A stretch of 64,000 nt of DNA, taken from NCBI RefSeq assembly GCF_000250635.1, contig NC_016940.1:3658501-3722500 (forward strand). The letters are read 5' to 3'. This DNA comes from Saprospira grandis str. Lewin (lineage in GTDB: Bacteria > Bacteroidota > Bacteroidia > Chitinophagales > Saprospiraceae). Positions within the stretch are counted from its first letter, which is position 1, and the number at the start of each line of letters is the position of its first letter. Under the pieces are notes generated by a model. That model did no database searches. It was not told the origin of the DNA and saw only the letters and a program-made list of their open reading frames with translations. Positions 44,399 through 57,722 of the stretch are shown here, one piece after another. Made by a program: the position numbers and the translations under genes.

Positions 44399-44512
44399 TT
44401 GGGGCGTTACTCTCTTCGGTCATCGAGGACAGACAAAAGTCCTTGTTGTTGCAGTTTATTGTTATTTAGGGGCCTCCGTCTCGCTTCGCTCGTCGGCGCT
44501 ATGCGCCTACCC
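44399..44512 (+). repeat. Family A repeat, partial copy 16
   Basis: Only the nested module (GTTACTC..GTCATCGAGGAC, palindrome remnant GGAC..GTCC) and a second head (GGGGCCTCCGTCTCGC) remain. The copy ends just before the IS3 element, whose insertion may have removed the rest. Confidence 0.65.
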
Positions 44513-44581
44513 CAATGCTTAAACAGAAAGTCCCTTAGTTTAAGGTGGAGGTTCTTCAGGGAGGGGAGCTAGCTCCCCTCC

Positions 44582-45343
44582 CTAGAGAAGATGCTGAAGA
44601 AAAATATCTTGAGGAGTTTTATATCCTAAAGAACTATGAAGCCTGTGATTGTTATAATAATTAAAATACTCTTTAAGTCCTTTGTGTAAATCTAAACCAT
44701 TTTCATAAGCTCTCAAATAAATATGCTCATATTTTACGGACCACCATAATCTTTCTACAAACACATTGTCTAAGGCTCGGCCTTTCCCATCCATGCTGAT
44801 CTTAATTCCTCTGTTGAGCAACTCAGACGTAAATTCTAGAGAAGTAAATTGGGCTCCTTGATCAGAATTAAATATTTCTGGCTGCCCCCATTTCCAAGCT
44901 TCGTCCAGAGCCTCTAGACAAAATCGCTTATCCATGCTGTTCGAAATCCGCCAGCTCAAAACATATCGACTATACCAATCCATGACAACGGTTAAGTACA
45001 TAAAACCCGCTTGCATAGGAATATAAGTAATGTCAGTTGCCCAAACTTCATTTGAACGGCTCACTTTTAGGCCTCGAAGTAAATAAGGGTATTTCTTATG
45101 GCTTTTGGCTGATAATGAGGTATTTGACTTAGGTAAAACAGATCGAATATTCATCTTTTTCATCAAGCGAGCAACTCGTTTTCTATTGCAAGTCAAGCCG
45201 GAGGCCCTTAAATACTCGGTCATCCTAGGGTAGCCCCATTCTGGATGTGACAGATGAAACTCGTCAATTTTACGCATCAGCTTTAAGTTTTCTGCACTTT
45301 CGCCCACAGCTTGATAGTAGTATTTTGATCGGGAAACCGACAT
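44582..45343 (-). CDS. IS3-family transposase OrfB (DDE integrase domain)
   Basis: 253 residues from its own ATG, but the frame is open upstream to the A run at about 45425-45433. OrfB is thus expected to be made mainly as an OrfAB fusion by -1 slipping on A_AAA_AAA. An HTH_21-like segment (HPEWGYPRMTEYLRASG) is followed by the rve core with Asp104 (WATDITYIPM), Asp161 (FNSDQGAQFTS) and Glu197 (DNVFVERLWWSVKYE). The second Asp and the Glu are separated by 35 residues, the D(35)E spacing. Confidence 0.93.
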   Translation of the reverse strand: MSVSRSKYYYQAVGESAENLKLMRKIDEFHLSHPEWGYPRMTEYLRASGLTCNRKRVARLMKKMNIRSVLPKSNTSLSAKSHKKYPYLLRGLKVSRSNEVWATDITYIPMQAGFMYLTVVMDWYSRYVLSWRISNSMDKRFCLEALDEAWKWGQPEIFNSDQGAQFTSLEFTSELLNRGIKISMDGKGRALDNVFVERLWWSVKYEHIYLRAYENGLDLHKGLKEYFNYYNNHRLHSSLGYKTPQDIFLQHLL

Positions 45344-45410
45344 TAACTCACATTGCCGAGCTATGCTAAGTCCTTCTAATACTGCTATTTGGCTCAGTCT
45401 TAAAGCTTCA

Positions 45411-45698
45411 TCACATTCCTCTATATTTTTTTTTAAGCCAGTCTAGCTCAAACTGCAACTTGCCTATTTGCTCATATAAACGGGCTTCTTTTTCTTCATC
45501 AACATCCACTTTGGGCCCTCGCTTTTTTTCATAAAGCAAAAAACTATTGGCCAAAAGCTCTTTCTTCCAGGCCGATATTTGATTTGCATGTAGCTCATAT
45601 TTTGTCGCTAATTCTGCCAAGGTCAATTGCTCTTTTAGCGCTTCTAAGGCTACTTTTGCCTTAAATTTAGAACTGAAATTACGACGCTTCTTTCTCAT
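45411..45698 (-). CDS. IS3-family OrfA (transposase helix-turn-helix protein)
   Basis: A 95-residue protein: HTH_Tnp_1 domain (NFSSKFKAKVALEALKEQL, ELATKYELHANQISAWKKEL), then a leucine-zipper-like helix. It ends at TGA soon after a run of nine A, where -1 frameshifting leads into OrfB (NIEECDEALRLSQIAVLEGL..). It provides end recognition and regulation of transposition. Confidence 0.92.
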   Translation of the reverse strand: MRKKRRNFSSKFKAKVALEALKEQLTLAELATKYELHANQISAWKKELLANSFLLYEKKRGPKVDVDEEKEARLYEQIGKLQFELDWLKKKYRGM

Positions 45699-45774
45699 CT
45701 CTTTTGTAATTTAGTGCTTCATTATACGACTTTTTTCTTTCGTTTTTCCACCTTAAATTACTGTCCTAATTTTG

Positions 45775-45914
45775 GGGGTAAGGGCACTACGTTCGGCAGC
45801 TCGCTGTTCGCTCGGCCCTGCGCAAAAACAAGTTTTTGCTTGGTCTGCGGCTTTGCCGCACTGCCTACCATCGCTAGGCCAGTCGCTTCGCTCCTTTGTG
45901 GCGGCTGTGCCGTT
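45775..45914 (+). repeat. Family A repeat, copy 17
   Basis: The head is degraded (GGGGGTAAGGGCACTACG). Variable palindrome GCAAAAA-CAAG-TTTTTGC. It lies between the IS3 element and the end of the DUF262 gene. Confidence 0.82.
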
Positions 45915-45989
45915 TGTTTGTTGCTAATTGGACGATTAAAGAAAAGCCTATAAGCAAATACAAGCTTATAGACTTTTCTCTACAATTCA

Positions 45990-48026
45990 TTATCGATCTA
46001 GGAATAAAAGACCTCGAAGTTTTTCGTCATCTTTTGCGAAGTCAATATCTAATTCTTGACCTTCATCGGCATATGCATTAAGTAAAATGTATTTCCAGAT
46101 TTTGATTCCTCGTTTGGCAAAATCTTCTTTAGTACAGTCAATAATATCTTCGTAACCAGCTTCAGCTAAAATATTCTTTTTATCTTCTATGGATAGAGCC
46201 GATCTAAATTCTTTCAATTTATCACCAGTGAGGTAGTAGTAGTTGCCTAGGCTGTAATGAGCTTTAATACTTTTGTTAGCGGTCTTCCAGTTTGCATCAT
46301 GTAAGTCTTGTTCATTATAAAGCTGTACGGCTTCGCCATTTTCGGCTAAGTTTAGTTTTTCCAAACCTGAAACTTTTTCTTCATAATAGAAGCGACTAAG
46401 GATATGGGACAGTTTGTTGTAACTTTCATATCCAGACTCATTGCGAAAACTCTCTTCTAGACTTAACTTAAGTTGGTTATATCTTAGATATCCATTAGGT
46501 GGAATCACCCAATCAGAGATTACTTTTGTCATATGCTGGTCAATATCATTAACTCTTCTCTCCTTGAAAGATTTGGAATTGAGATTGTCCATTGAGATTC
46601 TACAATTATAGTAATGAGATGCTAGGTTTCTAAAGTGGCTGCGTCCAGTAAAAGAACGGCGTCCCGATACTTTGTAGATTAGTAGAGTGAAGGCTTCTAA
46701 TATTTTTAAATACTTCAGAGCTCCATCTAAGCCATTTAAGTCCCGTTCTTCCTCAATTGCCATAAAGTTAGCTAAGAAAAAAGGCGTAAAATTGCTATTC
46801 TGTAAATCTATAATCCGTTTTAATCGAACAAAAATCTCCTTACTATAATTTGGAAACAAAATCTCACGATCTTTATCATTCCAAGCATCTTCAGGATGAC
46901 GGATTAAGTACCAAAATCTAGCTGCACGCTTTAGTGAAAGTGCATAGTGACTAATTTTGTCAATCATTTCGCTGCCGCCTGTAGGGAAATCCAACTCTGC
47001 AGGAAAATTCTTATCGACATCAAATATTACATCAAAGAGCGCTTTTTTATAAGGCTCTTTCTCTTTTGAAAAAGAATCTGTTGCAATCCAATGGTTATTT
47101 AGTAGGGCATCATCCGTTTCAAATAACCGAGGGTGTTTACCCAGTAGCTCATAAATTTTTGTCCAACTACTATTGACTACTTTAATTGTAGAGTTGACTT
47201 TTTCGTCACTACTAGCAGCTACTTGTGTCTTAAGAGAGCACAAATAGAGTAATCTATTTTTGAGTTTTTCTAAATTTGATAAAGCTTTTCCTCGACTATT
47301 AACTGTTTCAAAAATCATGTGAGTATTTAACTCAGAATCAATTTCTCGAAAGTCAAATTTGAGGTGATTCATTATTAACTGACAATAGGCTTGGAATTTA
47401 TCTTCAGTGTCAATATGAGAATCAACTTTGGTTCGCCAAAACTTTTTAGCCATGTCTAATTTCTCTGCATATACACTAGCTTGAACAGTAGTGGGTATAT
47501 CTTGAAATATAGTTTTGGTAAGATATTCATTTAAAGGGTTTTCACTGTAGTATGATAATTTAAATTTTTTTTCATCATCATTCATGATGAATAAATTAAG
47601 ACCAAACCCAATGTATTCTCCTTGAAGTGGTTGTCCATTAGCTGGATTCTTTAGAACATATTTAGACTTATTACCTCGCTCGTACAAGGTTAATAAAAAT
47701 ATAAGAATGCTTGTTAGGCGTTGTTGACCATCTACTATATCATAAACTTTTAGGCTACTCATCCCCCCCCACCATTTTTCTTTCCAGATGAGTGGATATT
47801 TATTTTCATCAACACAAGTGACCAATAAAGACCCTGTATAATGGTAAAAATTTTCCTTTTTTTTATCTCCTTTTTTATGGTATATTCTTTTGTATAGCCT
47901 ATTTATGTCTTTCCATAGGTCTTCTAAGTGTTTTTCTTTCCAGCTATAGCCTCTTTGGTAGTTTGGAATAGTGAAAAGTCCTTCATCTAATACTGATCGG
48001 AGTGTTTTATACTTTATATCACTCAT
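45990..48026 (-). CDS. DUF262 (GmrS/SspE-like) protein, third gene of PARIS-like operon
   Basis: 678 residues. The N-terminal DUF262 domain has both hallmarks: IPNYQRGYSWKEKHLEDLWKDI (from residue 20) and YDIVDGQQRLTSILIF (from 95); this ParB-like fold binds or hydrolyses nucleotides in GmrSD, BrxU and SspE defence proteins. The C-terminal half is DUF1524-like in outline (HYSLGNYYYLTG near 605, FAKRGIKIWKYIL near 650), but I do not find the usual HIxP His-Me nuclease motif, so nuclease activity is doubtful. It starts 3 bp after the DUF4435 gene. AT-rich, unlike housekeeping genes around it. No DUF262 gene is part of PARIS as I know it, so the trio may be a variant. Confidence 0.85.
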   Translation of the reverse strand: MSDIKYKTLRSVLDEGLFTIPNYQRGYSWKEKHLEDLWKDINRLYKRIYHKKGDKKKENFYHYTGSLLVTCVDENKYPLIWKEKWWGGMSSLKVYDIVDGQQRLTSILIFLLTLYERGNKSKYVLKNPANGQPLQGEYIGFGLNLFIMNDDEKKFKLSYYSENPLNEYLTKTIFQDIPTTVQASVYAEKLDMAKKFWRTKVDSHIDTEDKFQAYCQLIMNHLKFDFREIDSELNTHMIFETVNSRGKALSNLEKLKNRLLYLCSLKTQVAASSDEKVNSTIKVVNSSWTKIYELLGKHPRLFETDDALLNNHWIATDSFSKEKEPYKKALFDVIFDVDKNFPAELDFPTGGSEMIDKISHYALSLKRAARFWYLIRHPEDAWNDKDREILFPNYSKEIFVRLKRIIDLQNSNFTPFFLANFMAIEEERDLNGLDGALKYLKILEAFTLLIYKVSGRRSFTGRSHFRNLASHYYNCRISMDNLNSKSFKERRVNDIDQHMTKVISDWVIPPNGYLRYNQLKLSLEESFRNESGYESYNKLSHILSRFYYEEKVSGLEKLNLAENGEAVQLYNEQDLHDANWKTANKSIKAHYSLGNYYYLTGDKLKEFRSALSIEDKKNILAEAGYEDIIDCTKEDFAKRGIKIWKYILLNAYADEGQELDIDFAKDDEKLRGLLFLDR

Positions 48027-48029
48027 ATT

Positions 48030-49202
48030 CTATGCTGATTGTTCGTTTATAAATTGTTTGTAGTTTTCTTCCAAGAAATCCTTGATGTCTTGGGGGAAGA
48101 TTCTTTCTTGGTGGAAGTAATAGGTTAAGTTATTTGTTATTCCCGCAGATTTGGGAGTCAAAAATGCCAACGGTTGCATGGAATTAACTCTGTCTTTTTT
48201 TATAAATTCTCCAATAAGGTACTTGTATAAGTATTGATTTTCTTTACCTTTAAATATGCTTAAATAGCTTAGATCTGATGTTTTTTGTAGAATAGTTTCA
48301 TATTCATTTTGTATTAGTGTGCTGTTTGGATGTGACTTGTTTTGGGAAATAATTGAGTTGAGCTCATTTAAATTAGGGTAGGCATTTTTAAAAGCATTGT
48401 TAATACTTTCTTGACTAGCATTGGATAATAACTCTTTGTATATAGTGGGCTTTTTTTTGCTGTCTTCATCCTGTATTTCTACCTTTATTTTATGCTCAAC
48501 TTCTAATTTGTGTTTTAGAAGTTGAAGAGATCCTATTTTTCTGATGAAATTGAGTACTTGCTCTCCCTCTGATTTTAGAGGAGCTATTTTTGAGGAGAAA
48601 TCATCTCGACTCAAAAGCTTGCAGCCTGCTATTATTTTTTTATTTTCAGTTTTAGCATTAGAATTCTTCATAGTGTAGTATTCCCTAATACGTTCTAAGA
48701 GACGATCAAAAGTACTTCCTTTAATATTAGGCAATGTTTCTAGAAAGTAGCTTTCAAAGGAATAGTATTTTGTGAGAAATAAATTTCTAGCTTTAGTCGA
48801 CTCATCAATGTAGGATATATCAGAAGAGGTTTTTAACTTGTGGTTAAGTGTACATAATAGTTGATCAAAATCTCTATCTACAAAGTGCATATAATAAATT
48901 GTATGCTTTCCAGAATATTTAGCTGGGTTTTTTTTGATTGTTTTGTGCAATGCAAGGTTTTCAGCTTTACCAGAGCTAATTAAAAAACCAACATCTAAAG
49001 TGGATAGTGATTCAATTTTATTGCAAAATATTTCGTGAACAAAAGGTCTATAAAAAGGGATATCATCTATTCCCTCGACAACACATATAATTTTATATGA
49101 ACCTTTTGTGATGGGTTGAATATTGTATTCAAGATCAAAAATAGCTTTTCTTGCGGTACTTTGGTTTCTAAAAGTATGAGCTTGTTTGTCTTTTGTAGTC
49201 AC
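48030..49202 (-). CDS. DUF4435 Toprim-like protein (AriB-like)
   Basis: 390 residues. The DUF4435 signature is clear: IICVVEGIDDIPFYRPF (Glu43, Asp46, Asp47) and YYMHFVDRDFDQLL (Asp109, Asp111, Asp113) make a Toprim-like acidic site, and KYYSFESYFLETLPNI follows at the family position. In PARIS, the DUF4435 protein AriB is a nuclease held by the ATPase AriA; it is released when phage anti-restriction proteins are sensed and then cuts host tRNA. It lies 13 bp after the ATPase gene, in the AriA-AriB order. The C-terminal ~200 residues are helical and longer than I would expect for AriB. Confidence 0.82.
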   Translation of the reverse strand: MTTKDKQAHTFRNQSTARKAIFDLEYNIQPITKGSYKIICVVEGIDDIPFYRPFVHEIFCNKIESLSTLDVGFLISSGKAENLALHKTIKKNPAKYSGKHTIYYMHFVDRDFDQLLCTLNHKLKTSSDISYIDESTKARNLFLTKYYSFESYFLETLPNIKGSTFDRLLERIREYYTMKNSNAKTENKKIIAGCKLLSRDDFSSKIAPLKSEGEQVLNFIRKIGSLQLLKHKLEVEHKIKVEIQDEDSKKKPTIYKELLSNASQESINNAFKNAYPNLNELNSIISQNKSHPNSTLIQNEYETILQKTSDLSYLSIFKGKENQYLYKYLIGEFIKKDRVNSMQPLAFLTPKSAGITNNLTYYFHQERIFPQDIKDFLEENYKQFINEQSA

Positions 49203-49215
49203 TTTGACTTAGGTT

Positions 49216-50505
49216 TTAGATAGGTGAATTAGTTTTAAATCTATTTACTCCCCATAAATAACTATCGTAATCCTCTGTGATTAGAAAAGGGGAATGACTG
49301 GCTAAAAAGATACCTACTAGTTTTTTATTAAGTATACTTATTGACTCAGTAGGTTCAACTTCTTCTACCAAATGGTCTTTTGTCAGCTCATCAAGTGATT
49401 TGATAAAGGACTCCTGCCAGTTTCCGTTAAACGAAATCTCTGGCTCATCAATGACCATATAGATACGCTTTTCTTTGGCATATATTAACGGAATTAAGAA
49501 GGCAAGCAGCTGTTTTTCTCCTGAAGAAAGCTGGTTAAATTGTTGGAGCACATCTTCTTGAAGCTCAGTAGTCTCTAAGCTTATTTTTGATAAAAGACTA
49601 GGGAAATAAGTTCCTAAAAGTTGCTTAAGTAAGGCACTTCTTTCTTCAGCTTGTTCTTCACTTAGGATAATCTGTTGATAAAGTGGCTCCCCTCCAAAGT
49701 TAATTACCTCCTCATAGCTTAGATGATCAATATTATCAGAGGTTTGTCTATTTTGGTTTTTACTGTAATATTCTTCTAGCTCATCACCTATAAAAGATTG
49801 GATACTATTCTCTTCAAAGTCTTCATTTGCATCTTCTGTATCTTCAAAGTCTTCACTTAGATTTTCTTCTGGAGAGATGAATTTAGAGTACTTGTTAAAG
49901 ATAGCTGTAGCTAGACTGCCTTTTAGACTTGGAAACACTTCAGAAAAGGAACGTTCACTCTGTCTGTATGTAGGATAGTATAAGATCAGTAAACTGTTTT
50001 CCTTTGACAAGGATAGTTTTTGAGTTAATTGTTTATCTAGTTCGAGGCGTTGTGTTCCTTCTGCATGAGTAAGGATCTTGTTTATAAGGTTTGGCGGAAA
50101 GTCATAGCTTTCTGTAAGAATGGCTTCATATTTTATAAGGTATTGCTTGAGTGTAAGTAGACTCCCTGCTTTTTGCTTCTCGTAGTTGTGTACTATTTCT
50201 TGCCAGCTATCATTTGATCTGGGTTGTTCTTTTAAGAAAGCACTTTGTAAAGCATCCTGATTTACATTAAGATGATTACTGTTAAACTGTAATGTAGAGT
50301 CATCTTCGAACTGCATTTCTGCTGACTCTACAGATAAAGTTTGAAGTATTTCCCATTGTCCAGTAAGAAATAAGTAAAAGCTTTTTAATACACGACTTTT
50401 ACCTTCTCCATTACTCCCAACCAGCATTAAAGTGTTTTTAATAAAGGGGAGGTTGACGAAACTAGGTCCACCTTTAAAATGGACTGAAAAGTGTTTTATG
50501 TTCAT
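49216..50505 (-). CDS. AAA/ABC-type ATPase (AriA-like), first gene of PARIS-like operon
   Basis: 429 residues of the AAA_15/AAA_21 ABC-ATPase type. Walker A GSNGEGKS (30-37), signature SSGEKQLL (from 327), Walker B IYMVIDEPE (Asp353, Glu354) and H-loop LASHSPFL (His404) are all intact, so it should hydrolyse ATP. An unusually acidic insert lies near 215-250 (repeated DFEDTEDANEDFEE). Such ATPases act as the sensor-scaffold in PARIS, Septu and related defence systems. It is followed at once by DUF4435 and DUF262 genes. AT-rich composition and the nearby IS3 element suggest horizontal acquisition. Confidence 0.87.
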   Translation of the reverse strand: MNIKHFSVHFKGGPSFVNLPFIKNTLMLVGSNGEGKSRVLKSFYLFLTGQWEILQTLSVESAEMQFEDDSTLQFNSNHLNVNQDALQSAFLKEQPRSNDSWQEIVHNYEKQKAGSLLTLKQYLIKYEAILTESYDFPPNLINKILTHAEGTQRLELDKQLTQKLSLSKENSLLILYYPTYRQSERSFSEVFPSLKGSLATAIFNKYSKFISPEENLSEDFEDTEDANEDFEENSIQSFIGDELEEYYSKNQNRQTSDNIDHLSYEEVINFGGEPLYQQIILSEEQAEERSALLKQLLGTYFPSLLSKISLETTELQEDVLQQFNQLSSGEKQLLAFLIPLIYAKEKRIYMVIDEPEISFNGNWQESFIKSLDELTKDHLVEEVEPTESISILNKKLVGIFLASHSPFLITEDYDSYLWGVNRFKTNSPI

Positions 50506-50639
50506 GATTTGTTTAGTGAAAATAACTAACTAATGATCTTACGCCATGTAATATAGTGTTTTCTTCAACTGTCTCCAAATAAGAACATTTTTTGTGGTAA
50601 GTATGCTTAGAACTTATTCGGAATACATCTCCCAAAAAC

Positions 50640-50670
50640 GGCCTAAGCATACCGCTTAGGCCATTTTTTT
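50640..50670. terminator. Bidirectional terminator-like hairpin
   Basis: A perfect 9-bp stem GGCCTAAGC / GCTTAGGCC with loop ATACC. It is followed by ATTTTTTT on the plus strand and GTTTTTGG on the minus strand. Confidence 0.75.
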
Positions 50671-50754
50671 GCCCGCAGAACTACTCTACAATCCATATCA
50701 GCAAGAAACAATAGACTAAAAACTTCAGCATAGCCTAGTTGCTTTTGCAAAAAC

Positions 50755-50978
50755 AGCTCCTTGCCATCAGCAGGATCTAATTATTTTGTGAGGATAGCTC
50801 CTTGTCACCTGCAGGGAGTAATTATTTTGTGAGGAGAGCTCCTTGTCACCTGCAGGATCTAATTATTTTGTGAGGATAGCTCCTTGTCACCTGCAGGGAG
50901 TAATTATTTTGTGAGGAGAGCTCCTTGTCATCAGCGAGATGTAATTATTTAGCGGGAACAGCTCCTTGTCTTCTAAAA
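50755..50978. repeat. 41-bp tandem repeat, about 5.5 copies
   Basis: Units start at 50755, 50796, 50837, 50878, 50919 and 50960, each with AGCTCCTTG. The middle units alternate between two versions (GGATC..GAGGAT and GGGAG..GAGGAG), so there is an 82-bp higher-order period. Edge units are more diverged. The period is not a multiple of three and all frames are closed by TAATTA or TGA. Each unit holds a CCTGCAGG palindrome and CTCCT..CAC / GTGAGGAG arms. Confidence 0.9.
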
Positions 50979-51100
50979 GGGAGCCTGCTCGCTAAAAGAA
51001 GTCCCGATTTGCAGAAGAATGCAGACCAAAACTGCCGAGCCGAAAAGCCTAAAGAGAAGAAAAATAGCTTTTCCTCAATAACTAAAGCCGTAATTTTATA

Positions 51101-51131
51101 AAAAAAGTAGCTCTAAAAGTTACTTTTTTTA
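51101..51131. terminator. Bidirectional terminator-like hairpin
   Basis: AAAAAGTAGC pairs with GTTACTTTTT (one G-T pair), loop TCTAAAA, with T runs on both strands. With the hairpin at 50640 it brackets the tandem-repeat locus. The rest of 50506-51210 has no supported gene. Confidence 0.7.
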
Positions 51132-51140
51132 TCCTGGGCC

Positions 51141-51169
51141 TTGACTTTATCATTTGCCGACTGTATATT
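51141..51169 (+). promoter_or_regulatory. Candidate promoter for the 322-residue protein
   Basis: TTGACT (51141-51146) and TATATT (51164-51169) are 17 bp apart, close to the E. coli sigma-70 pattern, which is not the usual Bacteroidota consensus. The start codon is at 51211. Confidence 0.35.
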
Positions 51170-51210
51170 AATAACGTTAATGTATTTCTAAGTATTTAAA
51201 GCCCAAAATT

Positions 51211-52179
51211 ATGGACGATTTAGTCAGTTGGTCTCAATTGATCAATTTTTTTATTAGCAGTACCAAGAATTCTAGCCGAAAGATGTATCTACTCGCCTCC
51301 GATCATTTGCGCAAGCTAGAGTCGATGGCCAGCCAAGACCCTTTTTTAGAAGATTTATGGTTATTTTTATTGCCCTATTATCAGGCTTTTGTGGCCCAGT
51401 ACCGCAAAACGAATCAGGATCGTATAGAAGGCGCACAAAAGACGGCTGATTTTACAGAGAAGATAAATCTGCTGTCTTCTCGCTTGATTCGCCGCTGGGA
51501 TGCTCAAATTCAGCTGGTCTATGATATTGATGACAACCGATATAAGAAGTTTTTTCCCTACGGAAGAAAGCCTTTTCACCGAGAAACTTATGAGTTACGG
51601 ATTGAGGCTGTCCTCAGTTTAGGAGAACGCCTATTGGCCGAGCCCCAACTTCAGCAGCTGGGCCAAACGGTTTTGGCTTTTGGCCAGCAATTGCAGGCTT
51701 TGCGTATTCAGCAACAGGGGTTCAAGGCTTATAACTCGGTTAATGCTAAACGCTTAGAAAAAGAACGACTGCAGTTGGCCCAAGGGTTGTATGCCGTATT
51801 TTGTCGACTTAAAGGATACTACTATCAGGAACTACATCAGGTAGAAAAATTCTATAGTCTGCATTATTTTCGAGCAAAAACCAAAACTAAAGCCGCCTCT
51901 AGCCAAGAAGAGCGAGTAATTATGCTAGATTTAGCCCCCCATAGCCGCTTGGCCCAATTTCAAGAGCAGCTAAAAGGAGGCGAGGAAATCCATTTGCGCC
52001 ATATTGAGGGGCCTAGCCTAAAGTATTATACCTTGGCCCATGAAATGGACCAGCCCACTCAAATAAAAGATTTGCCTCCTTTAAGTCAGCAAGCTCTAAT
52101 CGTTCCAAAAGGCCACCGTCTTTTGCTGCTAGAAAATGATCAGCCACTGCCCGCTAAACTGCAAATAGAAATAGTATAA
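51211..52179 (+). CDS. Hypothetical helical cytoplasmic protein
   Basis: 322 residues, no signal peptide or membrane segment. The first ~230 residues are predicted almost entirely helical, with long amphipathic runs (RLEKERLQLAQGLYAVFCRLKGYY); the last ~90 residues are beta-rich (ERVIMLDLAPHSRLAQF, GHRLLLLENDQPLPAKLQIEIV). Gln-rich. No motif or family is recognised. The ATG at 51211 is preceded by a promoter-like pair and a long AT-rich leader. Confidence 0.75.
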   Translation: MDDLVSWSQLINFFISSTKNSSRKMYLLASDHLRKLESMASQDPFLEDLWLFLLPYYQAFVAQYRKTNQDRIEGAQKTADFTEKINLLSSRLIRRWDAQIQLVYDIDDNRYKKFFPYGRKPFHRETYELRIEAVLSLGERLLAEPQLQQLGQTVLAFGQQLQALRIQQQGFKAYNSVNAKRLEKERLQLAQGLYAVFCRLKGYYYQELHQVEKFYSLHYFRAKTKTKAASSQEERVIMLDLAPHSRLAQFQEQLKGGEEIHLRHIEGPSLKYYTLAHEMDQPTQIKDLPPLSQQALIVPKGHRLLLLENDQPLPAKLQIEIV

Positions 52180-52262
52180 GGGAGTGGCTCGCTGTTTTGA
52201 TGGCTGGCTTGATAAAAAACAACTAGCGTACAGATATATATCTACCTAAATTAGAAAAATAT

Positions 52263-53006
52263 ATGATTAGGATAAAAGGCTGGTTTATAAGACTGATAGC
52301 ATTACTCTTGCTAGGGGCTTGTAGTTCAAAAAACGATAGGCCTAAAGAGGACTACTTAGCATTTTATCTAGAGCAAAAAGAAAGTTATTATAGTTTTGCC
52401 CCTAGTCAAATTAACCTACGAAAAGTAGACTACTATACTCCAAGGGATAGTGTTAGTGCTCTGTTGTGCTCAACTATTCCTAGTTTGTCTAAGGAGTGTA
52501 TAGAGAATATAAATGAAGTAGACTTTGGAGAAGGGAAGAAAGTTTATGAAGTGCTGTTTTGTGCTGATTTAGCCTCTTCTTTAGGTGGAGCCGCTTGTGT
52601 AATTCCTTTGGCATCAGGCGAAACATTGGTCTTAGTTAGTTCTGATAAGGTATACTACTATGGGGACTCAATAATCCTTAGTAGGAATGTTTTTCGGAAT
52701 AAGTCTTATTTATATGGAGTACACTTGCTGGATGATCAAACAAATGTTTTTCATTTAAATTCCTTTTCCTATATCTATGAGGACTGTTTTGAGTGGAGCA
52801 ATGAACCCCAAACAGTTAATTTTGAGGATGGAGTTTTAAGGCTAAGCTCAAGATGTGAGTTAACGTTTAGCTGTGATAGTAATCATGCCGAATTTTATCC
52901 CACTAAAATGTTTAAAAACCTACTAGAATATAAAGTTGATATGGAAAACCAATATAAAGTTGAGCTTAAATATGGCCATTGGAGCTCTTCCTCTCTAAGG
53001 AAGTAG
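52263..53006 (+). CDS. Lipoprotein of unknown function
   Basis: 247 residues with a lipoprotein signal (IALLLLGAC, Cys20). The mature part has four further Cys in the middle (LLCSTIPSLSKEC, LFCADLASSLGGAACVIP) and strands rich in Tyr and Ser. No family recognised. AT-rich; it looks like an accessory gene. A family A repeat begins 6 bp after its stop. Confidence 0.72.
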   Translation: MIRIKGWFIRLIALLLLGACSSKNDRPKEDYLAFYLEQKESYYSFAPSQINLRKVDYYTPRDSVSALLCSTIPSLSKECIENINEVDFGEGKKVYEVLFCADLASSLGGAACVIPLASGETLVLVSSDKVYYYGDSIILSRNVFRNKSYLYGVHLLDDQTNVFHLNSFSYIYEDCFEWSNEPQTVNFEDGVLRLSSRCELTFSCDSNHAEFYPTKMFKNLLEYKVDMENQYKVELKYGHWSSSSLRK

Positions 53007-53011
53007 AGCGA

Positions 53012-53163
53012 TTTTTTGGGGCCTCCCGCCTTCGGCGGGCGCTACGTTTCGGGGCTCGCTGCTCGCTCGGCCCTGCGCGGGCTGCGCCCGCTTGGTCTGG
53101 CCTACGGCCCCCCCTGCACATCGCTAGGCCGTTTGGCCTTCGGCCATGGCGGCGAAGCCGCCT
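53012..53163 (+). repeat. Family A repeat, copy 18
   Basis: Variable palindrome GCGGGC-TGC-GCCCGC, tail hairpin GGCCTTCGGCC and GGCGGCGAAGCCGCC. Confidence 0.9.
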
Positions 53164-57430: not shown

Positions 57431-57722
57431 TTTTTGGGGCCTCCCGCAGCAAGCTGCGGGCGGTTACTCCCTTCGGTCGTCGAACTGCGCCCTAAAGGGC
57501 TTGTTGTCGTTTATTCCCGTTGGTCATCGAACTGGCGCCTCTTCGAGGCTGGTTGTCACAGCTCGCTGCTGTTTTGGGGCCTCCCGCAGCAAGCTGCGGG
57601 CGCTACGTTTCAGGGCTCGCAGGTCTGCTCGGCCCTGCGGCCTGACGGCCTTGGTCTGCGGCTTCGCCGCCCCCTTTCACATCGCTAGGCCGTTTGGCCT
57701 TCGGCCATGGCGGCTTTGCCGC
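57431..57722 (+). repeat. Family A repeat, copy 20, with two nested modules
   Basis: Variable palindrome GGCC-TGAC-GGCC (as copy 3). Nested modules carry GCCCTAAAGGGC and GCCTCTTCGAGGC; the head CCCGCAGCAAGCTGCGGG occurs twice. Confidence 0.9.

Follow-up and report, generated by a model that had tools for sequence, protein, structure and literature searches.

A three-gene operon that bears on how toxin switches of the PARIS type gain new triggers lies in a 64,000-nucleotide stretch, here called the window, of contig NC_016940.1 of Saprospira grandis str. Lewin, whose genome of 4.4 Mb lies in two contigs. The host is a marine bacterium. In the order gene 1, gene 2, gene 3, the operon encodes an AriA-like ATPase, a divergent AriB-like protein with TOPRIM residues and a DUF262 protein (Table 1), and all three open reading frames (ORFs) are complete and lie on the minus strand, with a gap of 13 bp followed by one of 3 bp. 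An earlier note on this DNA had described three intact genes with these two gaps, which the ORFs and coordinates confirm, and each of the motifs it named (GSNGEGKS, DEPE, ASHS, VEGIDD, FVDRDFD, YQRGYSW and DGQQRLT) is found in the translations.

In PARIS, six AriA subunits hold three AriB subunits, and anti-restriction proteins free AriB, whereupon tRNA is cut (PMC11455837; as also described in PMC12409363). We read the Saprospira trio as a toxin switch resembling PARIS, in which the toxin can be exchanged and a nuclease-dead DUF262 protein would act as sensor or bait, a reading to which we give even chances. A nuclease-dead third gene of this kind would make a decoy or adaptor route to new triggers testable.

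A probable divergent PARIS-type pair

The ATPase encoded by gene 1 has a Walker A motif (GSNGEGKS), a signature motif (LSSGEK), a Walker B motif (VIDEPE) and an H-loop (ASHS), and it matches the Pfam families AAA_15 (47.9 bits) and AAA_21 (47.4 bits), both above the cut-offs. Its top PADLOC model is AriA at 57 bits, followed by Septu PtuA at 49 bits, and it matches the solved AriA in the PDB with an E of 0.00097 over a short stretch, residues 324-375. When 375 Bacteroidota genomes were searched with gene 1, three other genomes matched at E<=1e-8, and in all three an AriB-like gene lies directly behind the ATPase gene; this partner matches DUF4435 in G121 (E 7.2e-23), AriB in G084 (E 1.2e-10) and a home-made AriB profile in G306 (60.7 bits).

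In gene 2 the TOPRIM acidic residues E43, D109 and D111 are present. AriB is its only good PADLOC model; the window allele scores 27.2 bits (E 9.4e-7) and that of a second strain, S. grandis DSM 2844, scores 26.8 bits. Gene 2 matches no Pfam family at E up to 1, DUF4435 included, no NCBIfam family and no relevant PDB chain, and DUF4435 is likewise absent from the Pfam matches of the DSM 2844 allele up to E 10. When the two alleles were compared by hhalign with an alignment of fifteen AriB-like Bacteroidota proteins, they matched with a probability of 97.9 (E 4.9e-13) over 92 columns, a region that covers the VEG..D motif, the DxD motif and then the YS.E motif. The AriB profile built from the same fifteen proteins, run with the HMMER filters off, gave 49.4 bits for the window allele and 37.3 bits for the DSM 2844 allele, against at most 12.3 bits for 200 shuffles. 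Searches of plasmids, phages, viral contigs and 394 further Bacteroidota genomes with gene 2 gave no match, and 366 genomes of the order yielded two more matches, both weak and partial (20.5 and 18.2 bits).

The published rule for PARIS, as given in PMC9122126, is AAA_15 at 32 bits or AAA_21 at 27 bits, plus an adjacent DUF4435 (PF14491) at 27 bits. Gene 1 lies above both ATPase thresholds; gene 2 does not reach the DUF4435 threshold, and formal membership of PARIS is rejected because Pfam DUF4435 is missing from gene 2. The earlier identification of genes 1 and 2 as AriA and AriB survives in that these are the best PADLOC models and that the three nearest ATPases are all paired with AriB, and it fails at the DUF4435 rule. 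The profile searches proposed with it came out in the same divided way: AAA_15, AAA_21, GmrSD_N and PADLOC AriA and AriB were matched, and Pfam DUF4435 was not, so that the label DUF4435 for gene 2 has to be given up and the kinship rests on PADLOC AriB and the profile comparisons. We take gene 2 to be a divergent AriB-like TOPRIM nuclease, and by their sequences genes 1 and 2 are in all likelihood a divergent PARIS-type pair. Because the TOPRIM acids are kept in both alleles despite 31% identity over residues 1-357, the effector looks active.

A DUF262 protein without its nuclease motif

Gene 3 matches Pfam GmrSD_N with 103.3 bits (E 2.5e-29) and has intact YQRGYSW and DGQQRLT motifs, and DGQQR, the DUF262 hallmark of GmrSD-type IV enzymes, is present in both Saprospira copies. 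The second hallmark of these enzymes, the DUF1524 nuclease motif, described as EHxxP in PMC12707154, is missing from both. Aligned with 24 full-length homologs, of which Bacteroidota genomes supplied 14, plasmids three and viral contigs seven, gene 3 keeps its N-terminal motifs and carries in its HNH half the substitutions E568Q, H569L, P572E and N604L, at positions where all 24 homologs have the original residue, together with N609S, where 23 of the 24 have N. The DSM 2844 copy shares the loss of the HNH motif.

A wider comparison gave the same picture. The loci collected contain 54 distinct complete homologous sequences in which DGQQR is present, and 48 of these have an EHxxP-type motif. Of the six others, two are the Saprospira copies, two (L129 and L142) stop short of the HNH region and two (L168 and L169) retain the E-H pair and the N-rich stretch and have lost the proline. 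The E-H pair is lost in both Saprospira copies and kept in all 50 untruncated homologous sequences from elsewhere, a count in which one gene was entered twice (L141 and L148) and several sequences are near-copies. Pfam GmrSD_C is present in three of three homologs tested and, at E up to 10, in neither Saprospira copy. We had been led to expect a DUF262 protein of the GmrSD, BrxU and SspE kind, which holds for the intact DUF262 domain; to judge from the residues lost in both copies, the protein most probably lacks HNH nuclease activity, and the expected kinship does not extend to a working nuclease.

The same site with another toxin

The trio is also found in S. grandis DSM 2844 (G395), at the same site, adjoining the same glycosyltransferase and dehydratase genes and with the same 3-bp gap between genes 2 and 3. 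The two genomes share 97.5% identity in gene 3. In gene 1 the identity is 95.8% for residues 1-361 (346/361) and 44.6% for the remainder (29/65), and in gene 2 it is 31.3% for residues 1-357 (106/339) and 93.9% for the last 33 residues. DNA identity drops abruptly at about 49415 and recovers at about 48130, the flanks of the block being about 92-100% identical. The simplest account of this pattern would be that one block, comprising the toxin and the tail of the ATPase, was exchanged by recombination in the flanks, and the ATPase tail may be the docking site of the toxin. Synonymous divergence is 0.087-0.112 in the trio flanks, 0.100 in the neighbouring glycosyltransferase gene and 0.305 in the next gene; since the flanks are as diverged as the glycosyltransferase gene and less so than the gene after it, this stretch may have been exchanged between lineages.

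The alignment of a third genome of the same species (G433) with the window runs to 44425 and resumes at 53015; no part of the trio lies between, and G433 hence presents an empty site. The gene 1 ATPase is found in two of six Saprospira genomes, one of the six being only 63% complete. That two lineages keep the trio together at one site, and that a third lacks it within a longer missing stretch, supports its being one unit.

One system or ordinary neighbours

We suggest that the trio may be a three-gene abortive-infection operon of the PARIS type. The AriA-like ATPase would keep the AriB-like TOPRIM nuclease inactive; gene 3, with its nucleotide-binding DGQQR domain kept and its HNH residues gone, would recognise an infection cue, be it the DNA of a phage or one of its anti-restriction proteins, and would hand the signal to the ATPase, setting the TOPRIM nuclease free. 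The freed nuclease, as the sole active one, would then cut a nucleic acid, as AriB does with tRNA, and so halt growth. The toxin allele and the adjoining ATPase tail would be swapped by recombination, with the ATPase body and the DUF262 gene staying constant. Complex formation, the question of which protein senses what, and the target of the toxin are parts of the proposal that we infer.

By analogy, the likeliest role of gene 3 would be recognition, with the signal passed to the AriA-like ATPase, because PARIS works by release of its toxin, because DUF262 proteins without DUF1524 have precedents and because inactive nuclease domains have been proposed as sensors. PMC10952713 describes nucleotides and contact with modified DNA as switching the DUF1524 nuclease of DUF262 proteins, and also describes the Menshen and Dazbog defences as needing DUF262 proteins without DUF1524, the Menshen gene going with a predicted OLD nuclease; inactive nuclease domains in BREX-related systems are put forward as nucleic-acid sensors in PMC12839542. 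We lean towards the view that the three genes are one working system, and we are evenly divided on whether gene 3 is its sensor or bait. The suggestion, made in the earlier note, that a DNA-modification sensor has been joined to a PARIS switch gains from the loss of the HNH motif, which fits a sensor role better, and still falls short of proof.

An integrated decoy would be a more specific form of this proposal: a non-cutting relative of a restriction enzyme would serve as bait for phage proteins that disable GmrSD, such as the injected T4 protein IPI, and their capture would trip a PARIS-type toxin. Both halves of this idea have precedent, because PARIS responds to anti-restriction proteins and T4 IPI is described as inhibiting GmrSD enzymes (PMC12707154), and we nevertheless rate it as improbable. 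In a second bold form, the dead enzyme itself would report modified phage DNA.

The alternative that survives best is that the trio consists of ordinary neighbours, namely a self-sufficient divergent PARIS pair and an unrelated DUF262 gene behind it in a defence island, which we regard as unlikely though by a smaller measure than the others considered here. Among Bacteroidota, two-gene AriA-AriB pairs with no DUF262 gene are frequent: of 395 genomes, 31 have an AriB match, and a DUF262 gene is present in none of 20 extended AriB loci, one of which is the window genome's own second PARIS pair. Conversely, gene 3 homologs were found in 16 of the 395 genomes, and no AriB-like gene lies near any of the 15 homolog loci other than the window. 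Gene 3 also remained constant while the toxin changed. Against mere neighbourhood stand the 3-bp spacing in both genomes, the co-inheritance at the same site and the loss of the nuclease residues precisely in those gene 3 copies that lie behind a toxin gene.

Several results nonetheless weigh against our proposal of a single three-gene switch. The homologs of gene 3 are mostly alone or within other systems, for example BREX. Among 175 loci, in which all ORFs of at least 80 residues were searched with profiles of the Saprospira copies and with the AriB profile, DUF262 and AriB-like genes occur together only in the loci covering the two Saprospira trios, the AriB profile itself detecting just 18 of 20 and 23 of 30 AriB loci, so that some of these absences may be misses. 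Gene 3 is 97% identical beside two different toxins, with no co-variation, which also fits an independent neighbour. There is no match of gene 2 to AriB in the PDB, and under default HMMER filters the AriB profile reports the DSM 2844 allele and misses the window allele. As a check on the supposed HNH ancestry of gene 3, its last 189 residues were compared in HMMER with the family profile, and their score did not exceed that of shuffles. The arrangement is known, moreover, from two genomes of one genus, Saprospira.

Other searches bear on how widespread the trio is. A DUF262 ORF was found in 29 of 30 viral loci, and none of these 29 has an AriB-like gene nearby, nor has any of eight plasmid loci. 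A scan of an 84,980-species collection, made with two strict peptide patterns only, found S. grandis DSM 2844 alone, and we found no report of a PARIS pair with a DUF262 gene in the open-licence literature. Recurrence of the three-gene order elsewhere, which had been named beforehand as a test of the idea, is thus barely borne out: the order recurs in one more genome of the same genus at the same chromosomal site, and in no other genus searched.

Other PARIS-like pairs were seen in these genomes. The second AriA-AriB pair of the window genome (G000:C1:383294-383956; locus L048:7145-9371) is a more ordinary one, with a Pfam DUF4435 match of 32.9 bits, and has another AAA_15/AAA_21 ATPase gene behind it. 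DSM 2844 has another AriA-AriB-like pair (L094:4249-7991), and before this pair lies a 405-aa gene in the same orientation. In G121 (L039:5868-11092), an HsdR-like type I restriction gene lies 3 bp behind the AriA-AriB pair, so that here too a PARIS pair goes with a gene of restriction type.

The C-terminal end of gene 3

A further possibility is that gene 3 ends in a different domain with an activity of its own instead of a dead HNH domain, which would make gene 3 a second effector. The failure against the family profile just described speaks for this, as does the lack of any Pfam or PADLOC match to the last 189 residues at E up to 10. However, hhalign places these residues co-linearly with the HNH region over 161-162 columns with a score of 29.0, at a probability of only 9.7-24.7%, and the controls gave 23.6 for the best of 100 shuffles and 22.2 for the reversed sequence. 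We consider a separate domain with its own activity quite improbable; the region is more probably an HNH domain that has degenerated, a replacement being the less likely case.

Gene 3 is under purifying selection. The window and DSM 2844 copies differ by 42 synonymous and 19 non-synonymous changes, a ratio of non-synonymous to synonymous rates (dN/dS) of 0.105 (binomial p 1.6e-16 against neutrality), with 0.054 for residues 1-490 and 0.33 for residues 491-678 (p 0.037), and on these figures a pseudogene was rejected. That gene 3 is a decaying restriction gene heading towards that state, as its faster C-terminal part and its loss of otherwise kept residues might suggest, is very improbable and largely refuted already by the full-length frame in two lineages, the dN/dS of the whole gene and of its C-terminal part alone, and the wholly kept N-terminal active site.

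Surroundings of the operon

The GC content of the trio DNA is about 31-38%, against about 43-50% across most of the window, and this, together with the Pfam matches and the repeat coordinates, agrees with the earlier description of an AT-rich block bordered by an IS3 element and a tandem-repeat locus. Neither border belongs to the unit: the IS3 element was rejected since nothing aligns with it beside the trio copy in DSM 2844, and the 41-bp tandem array was rejected since the alignment with that copy ends at 50724. Upstream of gene 1, at about 50610-50660 of the window, lies a terminator-like hairpin (GGCCTAAGC...GCTTAGGCC, then T's), which is retained in DSM 2844. GC-rich dispersed repeats of about 100-130 bp are found all over the Saprospira genomes and border the insertion (window 53010-53130, 45783-45880, 57572-57691 and many more). 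A 322-aa ORF at 51211-52179 has no Pfam match, and related DNA is present at two other sites in the genome that carries it; of five other Saprospira genomes searched, three also have such DNA.

Table 1. Features of the trio and its surroundings, in window coordinates.
Feature	Position	Strand	Evidence
Gene 1: AriA-like OLD/ABC ATPase, 429 aa	49216..50505	-	Pfam AAA_15/AAA_21, PADLOC AriA, PDB AriA
Gene 2: divergent AriB-like TOPRIM protein, 390 aa, GTG start, presumed toxin/effector	48030..49202	-	PADLOC AriB, hhalign, AriB profile
Gene 3: DUF262/GmrSD_N protein, 678 aa, without HNH nuclease motif	45990..48026	-	Pfam GmrSD_N, alignment, dN/dS
Last 189 residues of gene 3: probably degenerate, or replaced, HNH (DUF1524) region	45990..46559	-	Alignment, hhalign
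Exchanged block: ATPase tail (last ~65 residues) and TOPRIM protein residues 1-357	48130..49415 (ends approximate)	-	Alignment to S. grandis DSM 2844
Stretch absent from the same-species genome G433 (empty site): trio, IS3, tandem array and two more ORFs	44426..53014	.	Alignment
IS3-type transposase genes adjoining the trio	44582..45698	-	Pfam rve, HTH_21, HTH_Tnp_1
41-bp tandem repeat, 5.3 copies, upstream of gene 1	50755..50970	.	Repeat analysis

Comparison with known defence systems

Gene 3 is a full-length relative of the GmrSD, BrxU and SspE proteins, which combine DUF262 with DUF1524, and like them has an intact DUF262 domain; unlike them it has no EHxxP nuclease motif. Its nearest plasmid relatives either lie in BREX loci, where they stand between pglX and pglZ, or are found just before pglZ.

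Menshen (NsnA-NsnB-NsnC), compared here by its published description (PMC10952713), resembles the trio in that a predicted OLD nuclease is linked with a DUF262 gene lacking DUF1524, and this lowers the novelty of finding a DUF262 gene beside an OLD-type nuclease. It differs in that PADLOC NsnB is a weak match for gene 1 (E 0.0034, over the first 200 residues), far below AriA; no Nsn model stands in the complete two-row PADLOC list of gene 2, and none is found for gene 3 among the matches listed.

PARIS is matched in having an ABC/OLD ATPase followed by a TOPRIM protein, in AriA and AriB being the top PADLOC models and in the TOPRIM acids being kept. The trio departs from PARIS in that its gene 2 fails Pfam DUF4435, in the DUF262 gene 3 bp behind the pair and in the exchange of the toxin allele within an otherwise constant locus. 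What is new is accordingly a PARIS-like pair outside the DUF4435 rule, with a partner that is by its sequence a nuclease-dead DUF262 protein and with an exchanged toxin. It offers a natural experiment in which two toxin alleles are swapped together with the ATPase tail between constant flanks, and which points to the likely site of contact between toxin and ATPase.

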